This document shows positions 12,285 through 40,793 of a stretch of DNA of 64,000 nucleotides, one piece after another (the stretch's first letter is position 1; every line of letters begins with the position of its first letter). The position numbers were made by a program, and so were the translations under genes. The stretch is from contig KV419440.1 in NCBI GenBank assembly GCA_001630475.1, forward strand, positions 124,001 to 188,000. The letters run 5' to 3'. The notes under the pieces were generated by a model. That model had not been told where the DNA came from, made no database searches, and saw nothing but the letters and a program-made list of their open reading frames with translations. This DNA comes from Sistotremastrum niveocremeum HHB9708. Lineage: Eukaryota; Basidiomycota; Agaricomycetes; Sistotremastrales; Sistotremastraceae.

Positions 12285-13602
<1,318 letters not shown>

Positions 13603-13635
13603 GATGATTTTGGAGGCTGAAGGAGGGGGGATTGG

Positions 13636-13660
13636 GAGAGGAGACTCGAGGAGTGAAGAA
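13636..13660 (-). promoter_or_regulatory. Peroxidase leader block shared with copy 2
   Basis: A 25-nt stretch in the 5' leader of peroxidase copy 1 is identical to 22097-22121 ahead of copy 2, while the leader around it differs. Its core on the minus strand is CTCCTCGAGTCTCCTCTC. Confidence 0.7.
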
Positions 13661-13681
13661 CATCGTTCTGGCTGCACATCA

Positions 13682-13688
13682 TTTTATA
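13682..13688 (-). promoter_or_regulatory. TATA box of peroxidase copy 1
   Basis: TATAAAA on the minus strand, about 80 bp ahead of the ATG at 13602. Spacing matches the TATA-like box of copy 2. Confidence 0.7.
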
Positions 13689-15964: not shown

Positions 15965-17683
15965 TCATCCTGGATTAGCACCCCCCTCGACGCGTTTGAG
16001 GGACGCCCTGACGGCAGCGACGAAAGATCGACTACTGAACCCTCGACCACGGATGTTCCACACCTCTTCTAGAACGAGTCGAATAGTATTCCATCGTTTC
16101 GTCAAGTTGTATGAGTCATTCATATCATGCGCATATCGAGTAGTGAAAGCGCTAAGATCATTGCAACGAGGAAGCAGACGCGCTAGGAATGTGATAATTG
16201 GGAGCAGATCTTCAGGCAATGCTGAATGCCCTAGATTCAAACGTCGAAACCATTTAGGGAAGCGTTCGACGGGGGTCGTCGTCAAGTCTTCGAGATGAAG
16301 GTTTGCATTGAATAGACCCTCGATCACTGTGATTCTCGGGCAGTGCATGGGAAATAGGAGTAATGATCGTAGGCTCAACGTTGAGAGCATATCGAAACTC
16401 CCTCGAATGGGTGCGTTGGGCAGCCTGAATTCTTCTAGTTCGGGCCAAGCACTGAGTAGGGTGCCCAGTTGCGTGTCGGAAATAATGGCATAGACTGGCG
16501 CCATGTTCGTGAGATTGAGTTCGTAAAGGCAGGAGAACTTGACCAGTGGCGAAAGAGTCCTGAAATCAACGATTTCTGGCACCGGAGGGATGAAATCTGA
16601 ATGCATCGTATCTTCAATGAACTCAGACATTGCGGGAACATTGCAGTCAAGGATCTCCACCGAAGGGAAAAAGTGAGCGAGAACGTGAAAGATGTGGGGC
16701 GAGTCGAGTTCATGCGAGTAACGTTGGTGTGAATTACGTAACTCCACGCGAAGCTCCTGAACAGGAGAAGACTCAAGAGGAGCATGGTTCAAGGGCAACA
16801 GAGCGATGAAATCATCAAACTCCATCTCCAGATCGAGCGCAGATAGATTGGGCCAGAATTTAGGCCAATCCTTAGTATCGACAGAGAATGGGACCTCGGG
16901 TACAAGGCCCTGAGTTGGACGGCATACGAGCTGGAGATATGTGAGTCGAGGATTGAGAGATAAGGGACGGAGGACAGGGATACTGGTCTCGGAAATTGAC
17001 ACGTAGTTCAACTGTTTTAAAGTTCCTAATACCTCGCAGACAGCCGATACTGTTGCTTCATTCACAGGCAACAGCGATAGCTGCAACGACGTGAGATGGG
17101 GGCAGAACCGAGGAATATCAAGCACAACACAATCGGCGTACGGCCAAGTTAGATTTAATTCGCGAATTGTGTGATATAGGAAGGGCTTCACACTGAGACA
17201 ATGGTGGGTGTCCCATACCAGACGCCGAAGAGCCGGAAATATGGGTGAAGAGTTGGACGAGAGGACCTCCAACGGCTCCGGGTGGATTTCTCTTGTCTTA
17301 AACCGGCGGAAATCCGGGCAATATTTTACATCGCGCACAAATCTTCCGAAACTAGAAAAACGTTCCCAGTCATTGTCAGTGATGGGGCGCGAGAGCAGCT
17401 ATACGGTTGTGGGATTAGGTTACGGTGTGGGTGACGGAATGATAATCGAGCATACGATTGGCGGTAGACTGACATCATCTTCGCAGGTCATGGCTCTCAT
17501 TGGTATCAATTTTGCGTTGAGAAACTGAGGCAGGTCATGGATGATCCGATACATAGCTCTCGTGGCATATGCGGACAGTGCAACGCAGGTGAGTGAACAC
17601 TGCTTCAGATCTCGCTTACGGAGATAATCTTCGTGAATTATCTCGTCCAGCACCAGCGACGGCATGTCGAGGAGAGCTGGCAT
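15965..17683 (-). CDS. F-box/leucine-rich-repeat-like protein, tandem copy A
   Basis: Two exons (17683..17456 and 17398..15965) give 553 residues. The N-terminus MPALLDMPSLVLDEII ... LKQCSLTCVALSAYATRAMYR is a basidiomycete F-box. A second exon of 478 codons follows, with repeated leucine-rich stretches (CPHLTSLQLSLLPV, LSALDLEMEF, LYELNLTNM, LEEFRLPNAPIRG, LSLRSLLLF) suggesting an RNI-like fold. The C-terminal segment has WNTIRLVLEEVW. The donor at 17455 (GTATGC) was chosen because copy B has a GT donor at the same place, whereas the earlier GTCAGT of copy A is not conserved. It is probably an SCF substrate adaptor; the target is unknown. The tandem paralog lies immediately upstream. Confidence 0.85.
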
Positions 17684-18299: not shown

Positions 18300-20001
18300 T
18301 CATCCTGAATTAGCATCGCCCTCAATGCGGTTCAGCGAGGTTTGAACAGCGGCGACGAAAGATCGACTGCTGGACTGACGACCCTGAACGTTCCAGACTT
18401 CTTCCAGAACGAGTCGAATATTGCTCCATCGTTTAGTCAGCTCGTCTGAACCATTCAGGTCGTGAACGTATCGACGATGAGGAGCGACAAGAGCATCGTA
18501 ATGAGGAAGTAGACGCGCCAGGAATGTGATGATTGGGATCCAATCTTCGGGCAATAATGAATGCCCGAGAAACAAAAACCGGAACCACACAGGAAAGCAT
18601 GTGACAGGGGTTGTAGCCAAGTCTTCGAGATGAAGGCTCGCATTGAAAAGGGCTGCGATCACTGTGATTCTCGGGCAATGTATGAGAAACAGGAGTAATG
18701 ATCGCAAGCTCAACGTTGTGAGCGTTGCACAATCCCCTCGAACGGGCACATTAGGTAGTCTAAATTCTTCTAGTTGAGGCCAAGAACTAAGCAGAATGCT
18801 TAATTGCGTTTCCGAAAGAATGGCATAGACTGGCGCCATGGTCGTGAGGTCGAGTTCGTAAAGGCAGGAGAACCTGACTAGCGGCGAGAAAGTCCTGAAA
18901 TCAATGATTTCCGGCTCTGAAGGGAACAATTCATCTTCAATAAACCCCATTGAGGGCACATTGCAATCAAGGATCTCCACAGAAGGGAAAAAATGAGCGA
19001 GGATGTGGAAGATGCGGGGCGAATGCAATTCATGAGAGTAACGTTGGCGTGAATTACGTAACTCCACGCGAAGCTCACAAACAGGAGAAGACTCGAGGGG
19101 ACCACGGTTCAATGGTAACAGATCGATGAAATCATCGACCTCCATTTCCAGATCGAGCGCAGATAGATTGGGCCAAATTTTAGGCCAATCTATAGTAGAA
19201 ACAGAGAAAGGAACCTGGTGTACAAGGTCCGGAGTTGAGCGGCATACGAGCTTGAGATATGTGAGTCGAGGATTGCGAGATAAGGGTCGAAGGACAGAGG
19301 CACTGGTCTCGGAAATTGATACATAGCTCAATTGCTCGAGAGTCTGCAATGTCTCGCAGAGAGCTGATACCGTTGCTTGACTCACAGGTAAAAATGATAG
19401 TTGCAGGAATGTGAGGTGGGGACAAAACTGCGAGATATCAAGCACAACACAATCGGCGTACGGCCATGATATGTTCAATTCGCGAATTGTGTGGTGTAGG
19501 AAAGGCTTCACGCTGAGACAGTGATGAGTGTCCCATACCAGACGACGAAGAGCCGGAAATATGGGTGAAGAGTCGGACGAGATAATATCCAACGGCGCGG
19601 GGTGAAAATCTGCGGAAGCGTAACAGCGGAAATCTGGGCAATAGGTCACATCTCGCACGAGTCTTCCGAAAGTAGAAAAACGTTGCCAGTCATCATCAGT
19701 GATGGGGCGCGAGAGTCGCTATATATGGTGGCGAATTTAGATCACAGTATCCACGCCAAGATTTAAAGCGTACAATTGGGAGTAATCTTATATTATCTTG
19801 CCAAGTTATGGCTTTCATGGGTATCAATTTCGCATCAAGCAACCGGGGCAGGTCATGAATGGTCCGATACAGTGCATTTGTGGCATAAGTCGACAGAGCG
19901 ACGCAGGTGAGTGAACACTGTATGAGATCTCGCTTATGGAGATAATCTGCGTGCAGGATCTCTTCCAGAACCAGCGATGGCATGTCGAGGAGTGCTGGCA
20001 T
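18300..20001 (-). CDS. F-box/leucine-rich-repeat-like protein, tandem copy B
   Basis: Two exons (20001..19774 and 19718..18300) give 548 residues, with the same exon structure and an identical first-exon length as copy A (228 nt). It shares MPALLDMPSLVLEEIL, CSLTCVALSTYAT and most of the leucine-rich body, with substitutions throughout, so both copies have stayed open since duplication. At the position of copy A's possible earlier donor this copy has AT, which rules that donor out; GTACGC 24 nt later is conserved. Probably another SCF adaptor of unknown target. The tandem pair is flanked on both sides by manganese peroxidase genes on the same strand. Confidence 0.85.
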
Positions 20002-20704: not shown

Positions 20705-22062
<1,358 letters not shown>

Positions 22063-31033: not shown

Positions 31034-33265
31034 ATGATCCTCCCAAAATTCCTCGGTCTCCTTCACATCGTCGCCCTTGCACAAGTGTGCTACGCAGGTT
31101 TACTGACAGACCCGGCTGCTGTGGCGAACAAGAAATATGATTTCGTCATCGTTGGAGGTCAGTAACTCACCGTGCCTGGCGCGTAGATCAATGAGTCTCA
31201 CGAATCTTAGGTGGTACCGCTGGCGTCATCTTGGCGGCCCGCATCACTGAGACGACCAAGCACTCCGTGCTCTTGATCGAAGCTGGTCAATCGTACGTGG
31301 AATACCTTTCACAACAGCTCAAGCCTGAACCGCTTTCTATGGTAGGCACGAAAACATCCCGACCCCTCTTCGTGCACCGGCGCTTGGTGTGCGCTTTGGC
31401 TCACATCAATCTTGGACATGGAACTACACCGTTGTTCCTCAAGCTGGCATGGAGAACCGAACCTTCACCTACCAGATGGGCTACATTCTCGGAGGTTCAT
31501 CCTACAGTTCGTCCGAATCCCCCTTTTATGTGGCATTCTCTCATCGAAAATGTAGCATATGGACTCTGGGCCCGTAACACCGATCAAGTCTTCAACAAGA
31601 TCGCTAAACTGGCTGGCGACAACGGCTGGTCATGGGACAGTTTGGTTCCCTACTTCAACAAGGTACTTCGAGACCCACCTCAGCCGGACTTTATTGACCA
31701 GTTCCACAGGCGGAAGGCTTCTTGAAACCTGCAAAGGGAAGCGAATGGGGCTCGCATGATTTCGAGTCATCGGCCCACGGATCCAAGGGTCCTTTCGACA
31801 CTCAACTCCCTATGTTCCCCAACGATTTGGATCCTTTGGTCACCAAGTTGGTCGCCACTGAACCCGAATTCAGCAAATGGAACAACGACATGAGCTCCGG
31901 GAAGTCCCTCGGTATTGGTGCGGCACTTCACTTGTTTGCTACCGAGCGGCATCCTAATAACGCTTCATTTTCACAGGCACATCTCAGCCGACTATCACCG
32001 CAGAGGGCGTTGCATCAAACGTTGCCACCGCGTACCTGACTCCTGCTGTCCTCGCCCGCAAGAACTTGGACGTCATCACCGGTGTCCGTGCCACCAAACT
32101 TACTTTCAAAGCTTCCAAAGCTGGCCCAGTTGCTAACGGTGTTCAATTCACTCCCTCACCTGATGGTAAATTCTACATCATTGCAAGATGTTGAGTCTCT
32201 TGCTGATCTATATCCTTCAGTGAATGTTACAACGGTTTTTGCCAACAACGAAGTCATTCTGTCCGCTGGTGCCTTCAACACACCCCAGCTATTGCAGCTC
32301 TCTGGTGTCGCCGACAAGAACTTCTTGAAATCCCTCGGAATCCCCGTTGTCCTTGATTCTCCCAATGTTGGGCAAAATCTCCGTGACCATGTCGCCATGC
32401 CTATGCAATGGGAAGCCAACGTCACCACCACTCTTGACCAACTGCGCGACCCTACCTTCTTGGCGAACCAGACGACAGTTTGGGAGAACACCGGCAAAGG
32501 TATCCTCACTGCTGCTGTCGCCAATCATCTAGGTTTCTTCCGAGTCCCCTCCAATGCCAGCGTGTTCGACAAGAACAATGTTGATCCCTCCGCCGGTCCC
32601 GACTGTGCTCACTATGAATTCTTGTTCAGAGTAAGTCGTTCTTCCCACCCCTGAACCTGCGGTGATTAACCTATTTAATCTAGGAATCGTGGGAGTCCTT
32701 CATCACTCCTTCTCCTGCTACCGGTTTCTTCACTTCTATGGGCATGGCTTTGACCTCTACCGCCTCTCTCGGAAACGTCCTGATCAACACCACCGATCCT
32801 TTCGCATCGCCCCTCATCGACCCCAAATACCTGTCCGCTGAAGTTGACGTCAGAATCGGCCGTGAAGCAGTCAAGGCCGCTCGTCGTGCATACGCATCCC
32901 CTGTCTTCGACGGTTTCGTCGTCAAGGAGTTCGGTCCCAACCCCAATGCCACGACTGACGCTGATATCGAGGAGATGGTTCGTCACTCCGGATCAACCTT
33001 CTTCCACGCCGTCGGAACCGCACAAATCGCACCGGCCAAGTCTAGTGTCAAATCCGGCGTCGTCAACCCTGATTTGACCGTCAAGGGTATTACGGGCCTC
33101 AGAATCGTCGATGCCTCCGTTATCGTATGTTCTTTCCCAAACGCAGCTTCATACCAGTGCTCATTCGCTTCATAGCCTGTTCTCCCCGATACTCATCCCT
33201 TGTCTGCTGTCATCGCGTTCGCCGAGCGTGGTGCCGACCTTGTCAAGACTGCCTGGGCACATTAA
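31034..33265 (+). CDS. GMC oxidoreductase, aryl-alcohol-oxidase-like, secreted
   Basis: FAD enzyme that oxidises aromatic or other primary alcohols with O2, releasing H2O2 for peroxidases. Nine exons (31034..31157, 31211..31292, 31346..31506, 31556..31662, 31710..31917, 31977..32165, 32221..32630, 32684..33124, 33176..33265) give 603 residues. Signal peptide about residues 1-21 ([21 protein letters not shown]). The FAD dinucleotide fold is [16 protein letters not shown], then LLIEAG, and the GMC signature region is YILGGSSY. Catalytic His535 (FFHAVGT) and His581 (PDTHPLSAV) are both present, 46 residues apart, as in aryl-alcohol oxidases. Exon 3 uses a GTTCGT donor. The nearest intact manganese peroxidase is 9 kb away and would use its product. 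Exact substrate within the GMC family is unresolved. Confidence 0.93.
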
Positions 33266-36141: not shown

Positions 36142-39098
36142 TTAGCCTCTCGCTTTTAAATCGGCTGCACCTTGCTCAATAACAAAATAAACAGTTGTGC
36201 CGGGGTACACGGCATATCCATCATTATGAGTCGTCCCATCAGGGAAGGTGCTCCCACCCTGCCAATATTGGAATCCTGCCAGACCGCTGCTTACCACGGT
36301 CTTCAGCCAATCGGTGCAGATGGAAGCCTGGTTGACCGTGATTCCGAATCCTTCGCTAGAAATACAAGTGATGAGAAAGGGAGCCCCTAGTTCAAGACAA
36401 CAGGACGAACAGGACGACAGGCTTGTTTGCATTCTTTTGCGAGGTAGCATGATCGGAGATCCATTGCGAACCCCAAGCGGATTCATTATCAGCTTGTCCC
36501 CACCTCTGTCATCGGATGTCAAGTCAGGCAAGAGATCGCGCGATAACACGAAGGACGTTACCTCTGGGTACAAGTGAAAGGTGCCATAGTCAAGGGTAGA
36601 GAGCTTCAGGTTCAGGTTGAAGTCAACGCCAACGTCGGGAGCATACGGGTAACTCGCAGGATTGGAGAGTTGATACCATCCTTCATCACCGAGCGCAACA
36701 AGGTGATTAGAGTCAATAGACTTGATATATGCAGAGATCGTTGAGGCCCATTGGTTGATGGTAGCTCCAGTAGTATCGCAAGCCGACGACGCCGATCCGG
36801 TGGAGCCAGAGCAGCGCGGCTCATTAGCGAGCTCCCAAGACAAAATGGTGGGCTCGTTCTTGTAACGAATGACCCAAGCATTGATATAGCTCTTGTAAGC
36901 GTCGATAATGGTAGGATTTGTGTAGAAGGTGTCGTGAGTATCACCAGGGTTAAGTTGGCTGACATAAACGTCCATGCCACCGTAGTCGCTCCAGTTGTTC
37001 GTGCTTAACCCCCGATCAGCACATTAATTCCGACGCCAAGAGGCGTCGTGCTTACAGAGTAATGACCAGTTTGATACCGTGCGCCTTGGCCGACGACACA
37101 ACGTAGTCGAACTTCCCGAGACCAGTGGGGCCGGTGTTGATAGTGGCAAGACCGTTCGACCAGCTTTGATAGTAGGTGCCGTATTCGGGGATGGACGTGA
37201 CTTCGTTGAATCCCCTGTGCAATCATATGAATCACAGTATCACTCAAAGGACGAGCTTCTTACCACGTGCGAACAGTCGTCAAACCGACTGCAGCAATAT
37301 CAGAGAAGGCCTGGTCAATATCTGAATCGCTGTATTGTGCGAGCCAGTAAGCATTGGTTCCGGCAACGATGTAATCGGCGCCGTTGAGGAGGAATTTCTA
37401 TGGACACGTGAGATAACCGACCCCAAGAATCTGCAAAAGATGCTATGCTGACCTGGCCGCTAACGGTCACGAATCCGGTTGGAGTCGCAGCAGAAGTGGT
37501 CGTGGTGGTCGTTGTTGTGGTCGTGATAGACGTTGACGACGTAGTAGTCAAAGTCGTGTTTGTCGCTGGAGCGGTGATCGAAGTGACCTTTCGACTGGTT
37601 TCACGAGCCTTGAGGTCAGAAGCAGCTTTTTCGAGAACAGTATAAACGTCAGTGCCGGGATAGACTGCATATCCATCGTTGTGGGTTGTACCGCCGGGGA
37701 AAGTACTACCAGCCTGCCAGTACATGAAGCCCGTCAATCCGGAGCTAATAATGGCGTTCAGCCATTCGGCGTAGATGGTGGGTTGGTTGACTGTCACACC
37801 AAACTGCCCGCTATCAAGAGCGGGAGTCAGAGGTACCGCAACAGAACGCGAAACTGTCAACTCACAGGATGACGGGCTTATTAGCGGTCTTCTGAGAGTT
37901 GGCGTGATCACTGATCCATTGGACACCCCAAGCTAAAGCATTCGCAGCCTGTCCCCAGCTCTACGGCTCCATCTCAGTGACGACGCTCATCGAGAACAAA
38001 GAAGAATTATATCACCTCAGGATAAGCATGGAAGGTGCCGTAATCGAGAGTTGTAATCTTCAAGTTAAGATCGAAATCGATGCCGACGCCAGGAGCATAA
38101 GGATACGTGGGAGGATTCGCCAACTGGTACCATCCCTCATCTCCGAGAGCGACAAGGTGATTCGGGTCGATCGACTTGATATAAGCCGAGATGATGGAAG
38201 TCCATTTGCTGATCGTGGCGACGCTTGTTACACAAGCCGACGAGACAGAGTCAGACCCAGAGCAGCGCGGTTCATTGGCAAGCTCCCAAGAGAAAATGGT
38301 GGGCTCGTTGAGATAGCGAGTGACCCACGCATTGATGTAGTTCTTGTAGGCCGTAATAATGGTAGGATTGGTGTAGAAAGTATCATGCGTGCCTCCTGGG
38401 TTCAGTTGGCTGACGTAAATGTCCATGCCCCCATAGTCACTCCAGTTGTTGGTCCTGAGAATAGACACGATCAAAAAAGGGGCGCGAGGGAAAATGCGTT
38501 ACGACTGACAAGGCAACCACGAGCTTAATGCCATGTGTTTTGGCTGAGGATACAACATAGTCAAATTTGCCAAGACCGGTCGATCCAGCGTTGATGGTCG
38601 GAACACCATCGGACCAGCTCTGATAATACGCGCCGTAATTGGGAATTGAAGTAACCTCGTTGAATCCCCTACAATGATATAAAAAGACTGGCAAATTCAT
38701 GACCCAAGGCGCGTACCAAGTTCTGACGGTCGTGAGCCCGGCGGCAGCAATATCCGAGAATGCTTGATCGATGTCCGCATTGGAGTACTGGGCCAGCCAG
38801 TAGGCATTTGTACCGGCCACAATGTACTCAGCGCCATCCAACAGGAACTTCTAAGAGACATGTCAGAGGAAACCGGAGGAAGAATGACTGTCGGGAGGTA
38901 TACCTGTCCGCTAACCGTTACAAATCCGGCAGGCTTAGTGGGTCTGATGGAGATGGTGGATGCTGATGAGGAAATGGTTTCCGATGTCGAAGTGGTGGTA
39001 GTCGATGAAGACTTGTTGGAGCTTGAGGTAGTAGTCGTGGAGGTAAGAGTCGTCGATTTGGTTGTAGTAACCGTCGTCGACTTCGAAGTAGTGGTCAT
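36142..39098 (-). CDS. Two fused GH5_7 beta-mannanase-type domains, both lacking the nucleophile
   Basis: One continuous frame over 11 exons (39098..38904, 38850..38717, 38668..38510, 38454..38016, 37960..37866, 37810..37453, 37397..37264, 37214..37056, 37003..36562, 36505..36411, 36355..36142), 807 residues. It reads: Ser/Thr linker, GH5_7 domain 1, Thr-rich linker, GH5_7 domain 2. Each domain has AGTNAYWL, TTVRTWGFNEV, WELANEPRC (acid/base Glu224 and Glu619), DYGTFH and a conserved YWQ-G-GS segment. The family nucleophile motif LEEFG reads LGQFG (Gln343) in domain 1 and LEGFG (Gly739) in domain 2. Exon sizes repeat between domains (134, 159, 439/442, 95 nt), showing internal duplication. 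No signal peptide or CBM1 is visible before the linker; upstream exons may be missed or lost. Enzyme activity is doubtful. Confidence 0.85.
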
Positions 39099-39491
39099 TC
39101 TTCAAGCCAGAGTGCGCACGGCCTCTCGCTCCAATCATTCTTACAAGGGCAAGGGAGGGCACAGGGGACGAGCGATAGGAGTTTTGAACCCACTAGCACA
39201 TGGCAAGCAAGTTGGCAAGGGTGGCACTGGATCCCGACACATCCAACTGTGGGAACGGGGGGTATTTTTTGGTAATGTCAGGTTCGTCGTCTTCATAGAC
39301 CGCAAGATATTAACGTGTCGCATGAAGGCAGATCCTAGTACAATCCTGAAGCCTTTCGGCGTCGTTGATGTTGTGGGTGCAAAATATGTCGCTTATCGGA
39401 ATGTCATCCGATCCCGGGCCGGCGCGTTGAACTCGTACTGTCAAGCGTACTGTACTTCGCACTAGCAAGAACACGAGTCCACGACAGCGCT
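39099..39491. other. Divergent spacer between the GH5_7 fusion and the SDR gene
   Basis: About 390 bp serving both genes. A minus-strand frame here (39141-39323) is in phase with the GH5_7 linker across a possible 45-nt GTAAGA...AAG intron. It has no hydrophobic signal core, and its Cys/Pro-rich part only faintly recalls a cellulose-binding module. Confidence 0.45.
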
Positions 39492-40793
39492 ATGAATGTT
39501 GCTACGCCTCAATCGGTGCTCATAACAGGGTTGGGTCCTTCAATCTCTTGACGATAATGATTGAGTCTTACTAGTAAACTCGGTGAGCAGTTGTAGCGAG
39601 GGCGGCATTGGTTATGCTCTTGCTAAGGAGTATCGCTCTCGAGGTCAGTGTTGTTATCTGAGAACTTCTTCTCTTGTCACACATGTGAAACATACTAACT
39701 GGCTCACAGGTCTGAGAGTTTTCGCGACCGCGAGACGCTTGGAATCCATAAAATCCCTCGAGGTTCTCGGCATTGACATCCTTGAACTGGATGTGACCAA
39801 GCCTGAATCTATCTCGGCCGTGAAAGACAAGATAGAGAATGTGAATACAGGAAAATTAGACTTTCTTGTCAACAATGCGTATGTGCATAAGCTCTGCAAC
39901 GTCACGAGTAATACTCAGAGTGTGCCATTGATTTTGCAGTGGGATAGGTGAGCCATAACTTTAATTTAGCTAGGAATATAATTGACTCGTGGAATTCTAG
40001 TTCAGCACTTACCATTCACTGATTTGGAAATGAGTGCGGTTCGAGACCTATACGAGACGAATGTATTTGGTGTGATGGCAGTCACACAAGCCTTCATCCC
40101 GCTCCTGATTGCATCCGGTCATGGCAAGATTATAAACATCGGTAGCATCGTAGCTGTTATGTCAACTCCATGGGGCAGTATATATAACTCAAGCAAAGCA
40201 GCCCTTCATTCATGGGCAAACAGCCTTAGAATTGAGCTCAAACCATTCAAGTAAGCACTTTCTGGTGCTTCGCTTTCGACGCCTCTATGCCTAATCCTCT
40301 CCAAAGCATTGATGTTGTAACGGTAAAGTTCTCTATTTATCTTTGAAGTTATCTGAGACCATGTAGATCGTCACTGGAGCAATCAAGAGTCGGCTGATGT
40401 CGAATAACGAAACTACATTGCCTGAGAATTCTTTATATTCTTCCATGCGGGATCTCTTCCAGGAGCGACGCACAAAAGACACAGGTGAGATCCACAAACC
40501 CTGAAATACTGGGGAAGACATGATTTGTTTGCAGATGAGGCGACGCCTACCGATACCTACGCCCGAGACGTTGTCTCGAAGACTCTCAAGTCTCGACCTT
40601 CAGCATATATCTGGTCGGGAAAATTCAGTTCCTTAATTTGGCTTCTGAGTACATTTGGAAGCATAACTGTCTTTGTAAGTTTACCCTTATCGGCACGGGG
40701 ATGAACCTGATCAGATCGCAGGATTCGATGATGTTCAAGCGGTTTGGCTTGGATATCTTCACTAAACGCTGGCGTTCAAGTAAACATACATAG
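39492..40793 (+). CDS. Short-chain dehydrogenase, AYR1-like
   Basis: NADPH-dependent classical SDR, nearest in pattern to 1-acyl-dihydroxyacetone-phosphate reductase of lipid particles and ER. Nine exons (39492..39529, 39591..39643, 39710..39878, 39940..39947, 40001..40250, 40307..40322, 40367..40484, 40535..40674, 40722..40793) give 287 residues. The cofactor motif GCSEGGIGYALA spans the first junction. NNAG is built from exon 3 plus an 8-nt microexon, giving NNAGIVQHLP with the correct AG-x5-P spacing of the family. Catalytic YNSSK and the Ser of NIGSIVA are present. A C-terminal hydrophobic segment (SSLIWLLSTFGSITVF) may attach it to membranes. It diverges from the GH5_7 fusion. Lipid substrate is inference from the family. 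Confidence 0.87.

Follow-up and report, generated by a model that had tools for sequence, protein, structure and literature searches.

The gene that occupies positions 36142..39098 on the minus strand of the window (the whole stretch of 64,000 nucleotides analyzed here, from contig KV419440.1 of Sistotremastrum niveocremeum HHB9708) has about an even chance of encoding a retained, non-catalytic protein, formed by two GH5_7-type domains in tandem, both of which have lost the nucleophile of the family's catalytic pair.

The splice model of the whole coding region contains 11 exons (195, 134, 159, 439, 95, 358, 134, 159, 442, 95, and 214 nt), separated by ten introns of 48–56 nt each, all with GT...AG ends, and its 2421 coding bases are translated into 807 amino acids with no in-frame stop or frameshift. 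From the N-terminus, a Thr/Ser-rich segment that has no signal peptide (residues 1–56; 38931..39098) is followed by domain 1 (residues 57–410; 37603..38930, introns included), a Thr-rich interdomain linker (residues 411–451; 37480..37602), and domain 2 (residues 452–807; 36145..37479, introns included), all on the minus strand. Domain 1 was matched by phmmer to chain 3wfl (E 6.4e-84) and domain 2 to chain 4qp0 (E 2.8e-83), and the Pfam Cellulase (GH5) profile matched two of the five contiguous pieces scanned, one in each domain. An earlier note on this DNA had described two complete GH5_7 domains in a single open frame, joined by a Thr-rich linker and sharing a series of exon lengths, and the rebuilt model upholds all of this, with the 134/159/439–442/95 series recurring exactly between the domains. 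No further GH5_7 copy was found elsewhere within the window by tblastn (E 0.01).

Across most of their length, the spliced domains resemble fungal endo-mannanases of solved structure, with phmmer E-values of 1e-77 to 1e-84, and domain 2 is 43–47% identical to five solved enzymes (1qno, 3wfl, 3ziz, 4qp0, and 31ao), which we take to be labelled GH5_7. Two features of the GH5_7 sequence family, similarity over most of the domain to the characterized members and an acid/base Glu in the NEP motif, are present, and the similarity to the solved chains suggests that each domain would fold as a (beta/alpha)8 barrel. The comparison with viral contigs returned no match to the gene.

In the T. reesei mannanase 1qno, Glu169 is presumably the acid/base and Glu276 the nucleophile. 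The alignment with the five solved enzymes places Glu224 of domain 1 (GAA; 38271..38273, minus strand) and Glu619 of domain 2 (GAG; 36820..36822, minus strand) opposite Glu169, both within NEPRC. The residues opposite Glu276 are Gln343 in domain 1 (CAG; 37804..37806, minus strand), where the motif reads LGQFG, and Gly739 in domain 2 (GGA; 36349..36351, minus strand), where it reads LEGFG, so that neither domain has the nucleophile Glu of an active GH5_7 mannanase. Arg54, Asn168, Glu169, Arg171, Glu205, His241, Tyr243, Trp247, and Trp306 (1qno numbering) are kept in both domains. The replacement of the nucleophile in both halves and the retention of the acid/base Glu, NEPRC, and the substrate-facing Trp and His residues, as read in the earlier note, are thus borne out by the alignment. 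The available text on CcMan5C of Coprinopsis cinerea states the same pair of roles for its acid/base and nucleophile Glu (PMC10056200). The protein therefore resembles the GH5_7 endo-beta-1,4-mannanases in its domain similarity, acid/base Glu, and cleft residues, but differs from them in the replaced nucleophile, the two domains per chain, and the lack of any signal peptide found.

The extent of the change was assessed in an alignment of 85 rows, made up of the five solved chains and 80 prokaryotic relatives, the best among at least 565. Forty columns reach a conservation of 95% or more across these rows, and each domain departs at one of them, which is position 276 in both cases; this combination of a missing catalytic residue and otherwise unchanged conserved residues is what would be expected of a glycoside hydrolase pseudoenzyme, and favors the retained protein. 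At position 276, Glu is found in 84 of the 85 relatives and a gap in the other, while 67 rows depart at none of the 40 columns and a single row departs at 33. The Clostridium cibarium relative L002 is most likely the row with the gap at the nucleophile column, and is probably also the one with 33 departures, owing to a split frame or a partial extraction. The earlier claim that everything else is preserved holds for the 39 other family-wide columns, but not for the 92 columns that are invariant in the five solved enzymes, where there are 16 differences in domain 1 and 18 in domain 2, nucleophile included, which weakens the case for retention. A third set, of 124 columns held by at least 75% of 84 rows that are mostly bacterial (median departure 7), gave 44 departures in domain 1 and 39 in domain 2, with 38 common to both domains, six in domain 1 alone, and one in domain 2 alone. 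Given that the five solved fungal enzymes depart at 36 to 52 of these columns, the values of the two domains fall within or below the range of the solved enzymes, which again favors retention.

As each nucleophile codon is the second full codon of its exon, directly after the splice acceptor, and the donor of intron 10 in domain 2 is weak, a wrong choice of splice sites or an incorrect base in the assembly might mask the Glu. This is a highly improbable account of the pattern, given that none of the alternative GT/AG pairs tried near the junctions (18 in domain 1 and 19 in domain 2, of which two and three, respectively, reach the motif in frame) yields Glu at the motif, that two separate errors would be required, and that the remainder of the 2.4-kb frame is clean. 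Alternative splicing as a way of restoring the residue was discarded on the result for these GT/AG pairs.

Intron 10 itself (36356..36410, minus strand) has the donor GTTCGT, with two further in-frame donors 9 and 12 bases on, and its retention would introduce a stop inside the intron, ahead of the nucleophile motif, with the loss of the end of domain 2. The weakness of this donor counts against a retained protein. Two neighboring, near-identical 9-base strings, GTCCTGTTC and GTCCTGTTG, span the donor at 36398-36415 on the minus strand, as if a small duplication had upset the splice site. Introns 9 and 10 total 111 bases, and a transcript that kept both would have an uninterrupted frame from exon 9 through to the stop codon, an ORF of 293 amino acids (36142-37023, minus strand), in which exon 10 would be read in another frame.

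The two domains share 79–80% of their residues and 73% of their coding DNA, with 57, 34, and 197 differences at the first, second, and third codon positions, respectively, and a dN of 0.135. Saturation leaves the NG86 synonymous distance undefined, both for the full length of the domains and for five of six 60-codon segments, with a value of 1.045 in the sixth, and the maximum likelihood synonymous value of 15 is not meaningful, so saturation was read from the codon positions and the fourfold sites. The third base is the same at 36% of the 133 shared fourfold codons, against a random expectation of 28%, so that the synonymous sites of the two domains fall slightly short of full saturation. Homologous introns, of which there are five pairs, look unrelated by eye apart from their ends. 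The combination of near-saturation at synonymous sites with high protein identity indicates an old duplication, since which both domains have been mostly under purifying selection, and the persistence of this selection for the greater part of that period favors a retained protein. The signal of selection spans the period since the duplication as a whole, and may come from before or after the losses of the nucleophile.

The constraint may not have been uniform along the domains. Past residue 240, there are 29 interdomain differences, in comparison with the 18.0 expected from the site rates of the family. This C-terminal excess has z values of 2.4 to 4.0 when the cut is placed at any of eight points between 150 and 280, and of 1.2 when it is placed at 300, although the first cut was picked after the data had been seen, and among the controls (four pairs from solved enzymes and three bacterial pairs, at cut 240 only, with z from -1.5 to 2.2) one reached 2.2. 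Divergence beyond the family rates weakens the retained reading, as it may mean eased constraint, and is a hint that constraint near the lost residue was relaxed, which is compatible with either a retained or a dead gene.

The main rival to a retained protein, and a serious one, although its probability is well short of even, is a recently dead gene, that is, a once-active secreted two-domain mannanase whose 5' end, with the signal peptide and any CBM1, and both nucleophiles disappeared so recently that stops and frameshifts had no time to gather. Such a 5'-truncated pseudogene would account for a model that begins in a linker and has no signal peptide, for the weak donor of intron 10, for two substitutions that each abolish the nucleophile of the known mechanism, and for the C-terminal divergence. 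It is opposed by the long frame free of stops and frameshifts, with its ten GT-AG introns, by the 39 other conserved columns that are unchanged in both domains, and by the improbability of this pattern under random mutation.

This improbability was estimated by a simulation in which the present coding sequence was mutated forward at random, with indels and splice sites left aside. The loss of one conserved column per domain, in the same column and with the frame open, was obtained most often at 20 mutations, in 12 of 6000 runs, and further in four, five, and one of 6000 at 10, 30, and 40 mutations, respectively, and in none of 3000 at 60 to 120. When the nucleophile column is named beforehand, the approximate simulated probability peaks at about 3e-5, and every one of these values presupposes that the two hits were independent and the columns equal. 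Random decay is a poor fit given these low values, and the judgment of the earlier note that it is unlikely stands. Its description of the losses as independent is only one of several possibilities, among them a single loss before the duplication. A loss predating the duplication would remove the coincidence, but would also imply that the subsequent selection acted on a protein that was already inactive, which favors a retained pseudoenzyme. The cheapest path to a pseudogene would combine an old loss in domain 1 with a recent loss in domain 2, probably at a cost of about 1 in 40.

The N-terminus favors the dead gene and weakens a retained secreted protein, given that the ATG at 39098 sits within a Thr/Ser-rich linker of the secretory type and that heuristic scans of the upstream DNA revealed neither a signal peptide nor a CBM1. 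Such linkers usually come after a signal peptide and a CBM1. CcMan5C, for example, carries a signal peptide as well as a cellulose-binding domain, according to the available text (PMC10056200). The interval between the ATG of the mannanase-like gene and the likely ATG of a divergent short-chain dehydrogenase (SDR) gene is 393 bases (39099..39491, neither strand assigned), and heuristic scans of its minus strand recognized no CBM1, signal peptide, or coding frame, although scans of this type may miss short or unusually split first exons. The signal peptide and CBM1 of the fungal extracellular GH5_7 enzymes were thus both absent in the heuristic scans.

A decayed CBM1 upstream of the linker was considered on account of the strings CASG and LCPPLP, which are in line with an in-frame intron, and was found to be unsupported. 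The frameshift-tolerant alignment score of 31.5 was equalled by 38 of 326 tiles of the window, the tested stretch included, and shuffled proteins scored as high as the real one in 107 of 2000 cases for one CBM1 query (borderline, at about 5%) and in 934 of 2000 for the other. Scored for the codon usage of the mannanase-like gene, the three frames of 39323..39146 reach -0.36, -0.57, and -0.05, whereas three exons score 0.22 to 0.34, and Pfam found no CBM1 in the five upstream ORFs scanned, where the DUF1996 match was sub-threshold.

A hidden signal peptide was also rejected. A search for an upstream start joined through one intron (ATG from 39900 to 39098, introns of 40–130 nt, and first exons of up to 250 nt) returned six candidates, of which the best, at 39242, has a hydrophobicity of only 0.97, in comparison with the 2.31 of the leader of a peroxidase in the same window. 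Among the 12 best ATG starts from 40200 to 39050, five are more hydrophobic (1.03 to 1.92), all of them at 39684 or beyond, past the likely start of the SDR gene; the starts at 40015 and 40097 lie outside the range of the one-intron search, which multi-intron starts or those with fewer than 16 open codons would also escape. The lack of secretion signals is not fatal to a retained protein, given that GH5_7 includes intracellular enzymes, as stated in the available text of Aspeborg et al. 2012 (PMC3526467). In the reading of the earlier note, a retained mannan-binding pseudoenzyme, the fused and nucleophile-less chain with its other family-wide conserved residues kept has stood up, the mannan binding is putative, and the absence of secretion signals in the heuristic upstream scans counts against a secreted protein.

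The neighborhood of the gene includes the SDR gene (Pfam adh_short), which runs on the plus strand from 39492 onwards, with its likely ATG at 39492, counted by eye. A peroxidase exon lies at 21082-21831 on the minus strand (Pfam peroxidase, E 5.4e-32; class II by eye), and some 7 kb from it, the start of an ORF at 13222-13683 (minus strand), which has no Pfam match, resembles by eye a second class II peroxidase leader. The adjacent long ORFs at 15965-17398, which had no Pfam match, and 18300-19718, both on the minus strand, are paralogue-like by eye. Pieces of a GMC oxidoreductase are found at 31195-33175 on the plus strand (Pfam GMC_oxred_N on one of the two scanned), and the window also carries a forkhead piece. 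The peroxidase, GMC oxidoreductase, and forkhead pieces, together with the small introns, fit a wood-decaying basidiomycete.

The change of a nucleophile to Gly is a classic glycosynthase change. With the acid/base Glu and the residues of the sugar cleft intact, catalysis might persist by another route, through a displaced carboxylate (Glu738 in domain 2), an external anion, or glycosynthase-like transfer from activated donors. This is improbable, as Glu is missing from both positions of the motif in domain 1, Glu738 would face the opposite way on the beta strand, and, to our knowledge, there is no natural glycosyl fluoride donor.

Under the preferred reading of a retained, non-catalytic protein, each barrel would still hold beta-1,4-mannan or manno-oligosaccharides in its intact cleft, where no covalent glycosyl-enzyme intermediate could form without the nucleophile, and the sugar would be held rather than cut. 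The joining of two barrels by a flexible Thr-rich linker would add avidity, and the protein may serve in anchoring at mannan, in the sequestration of oligosaccharides, or in the occupation of an inhibitor. The fuller proposal, which falls a little below an even chance, is that a mannanase became a long-lived, bivalent, mannan-gripping GH5_7 pseudoenzyme, its nucleophile having been lost either once before or twice after the duplication, with both sites preserved by selection.

The retained reading is also favored by the non-catalytic GH5 modules that have already been published. Aspeborg et al. 2012 (PMC3526467), in the text available, list GH5_30, a Xanthomonas GH5_1 subgroup, a lipoprotein group related to GH5_8, one GH5_48, and Rsi24C-GH5, which still interacts with crystalline cellulose. 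These modules are likewise GH5 domains with lost catalytic machinery, but neither a GH5_7 example nor a fused pair is mentioned in the available text on them, and the GH5_1 and GH5_8-related groups lie on long branches, unlike the present gene, in which the other family-wide residues are retained. Outside GH5, the available text of PMC8960721 describes PsXLP1 (GH12) of Phytophthora sojae as an inactive decoy for a host inhibitor, and cites the inactive MpChi (GH18) of Moniliophthora as manipulating chitin-triggered immunity; both belong to other families and to plant pathogens, while the tandem GH5_7 gene has no sign of host interaction. The GH28 pseudoenzymes of beetles are inactive relatives of wall-degrading enzymes that have been retained in the same digestive pathway, according to the part of PMC6549527 available, but they come from insects, are related to pectin, and are separate genes, unlike the fused fungal pair. 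The literature search found no fused or nucleophile-free GH5_7 protein and no match for a GH5_7 pseudoenzyme, although the query also catches GH57 and absence is unproven. In the available parts of the papers examined, "two GH5_7" in tandem or duplicated wording refers to two genes, and the available part of PMC13357471 has nothing on a fused or nucleophile-free GH5_7. Inactive glycoside hydrolase proteins with kept roles are already known in other families, and the GH5_7 case would add a fused pair.

If the proposal is correct, the gene would represent an anchor similar to a CBM, a sensor, or an inhibitor decoy built from catalytic domains, with two binding barrels per chain. The loss of the same residue in both fused halves, with the cleft residues intact, provides a natural test of whether wood-decay fungi reuse cell-wall hydrolases for binding. 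A purely family-based annotation would call this gene a mannanase, yet its product is probably incapable of cutting mannan.
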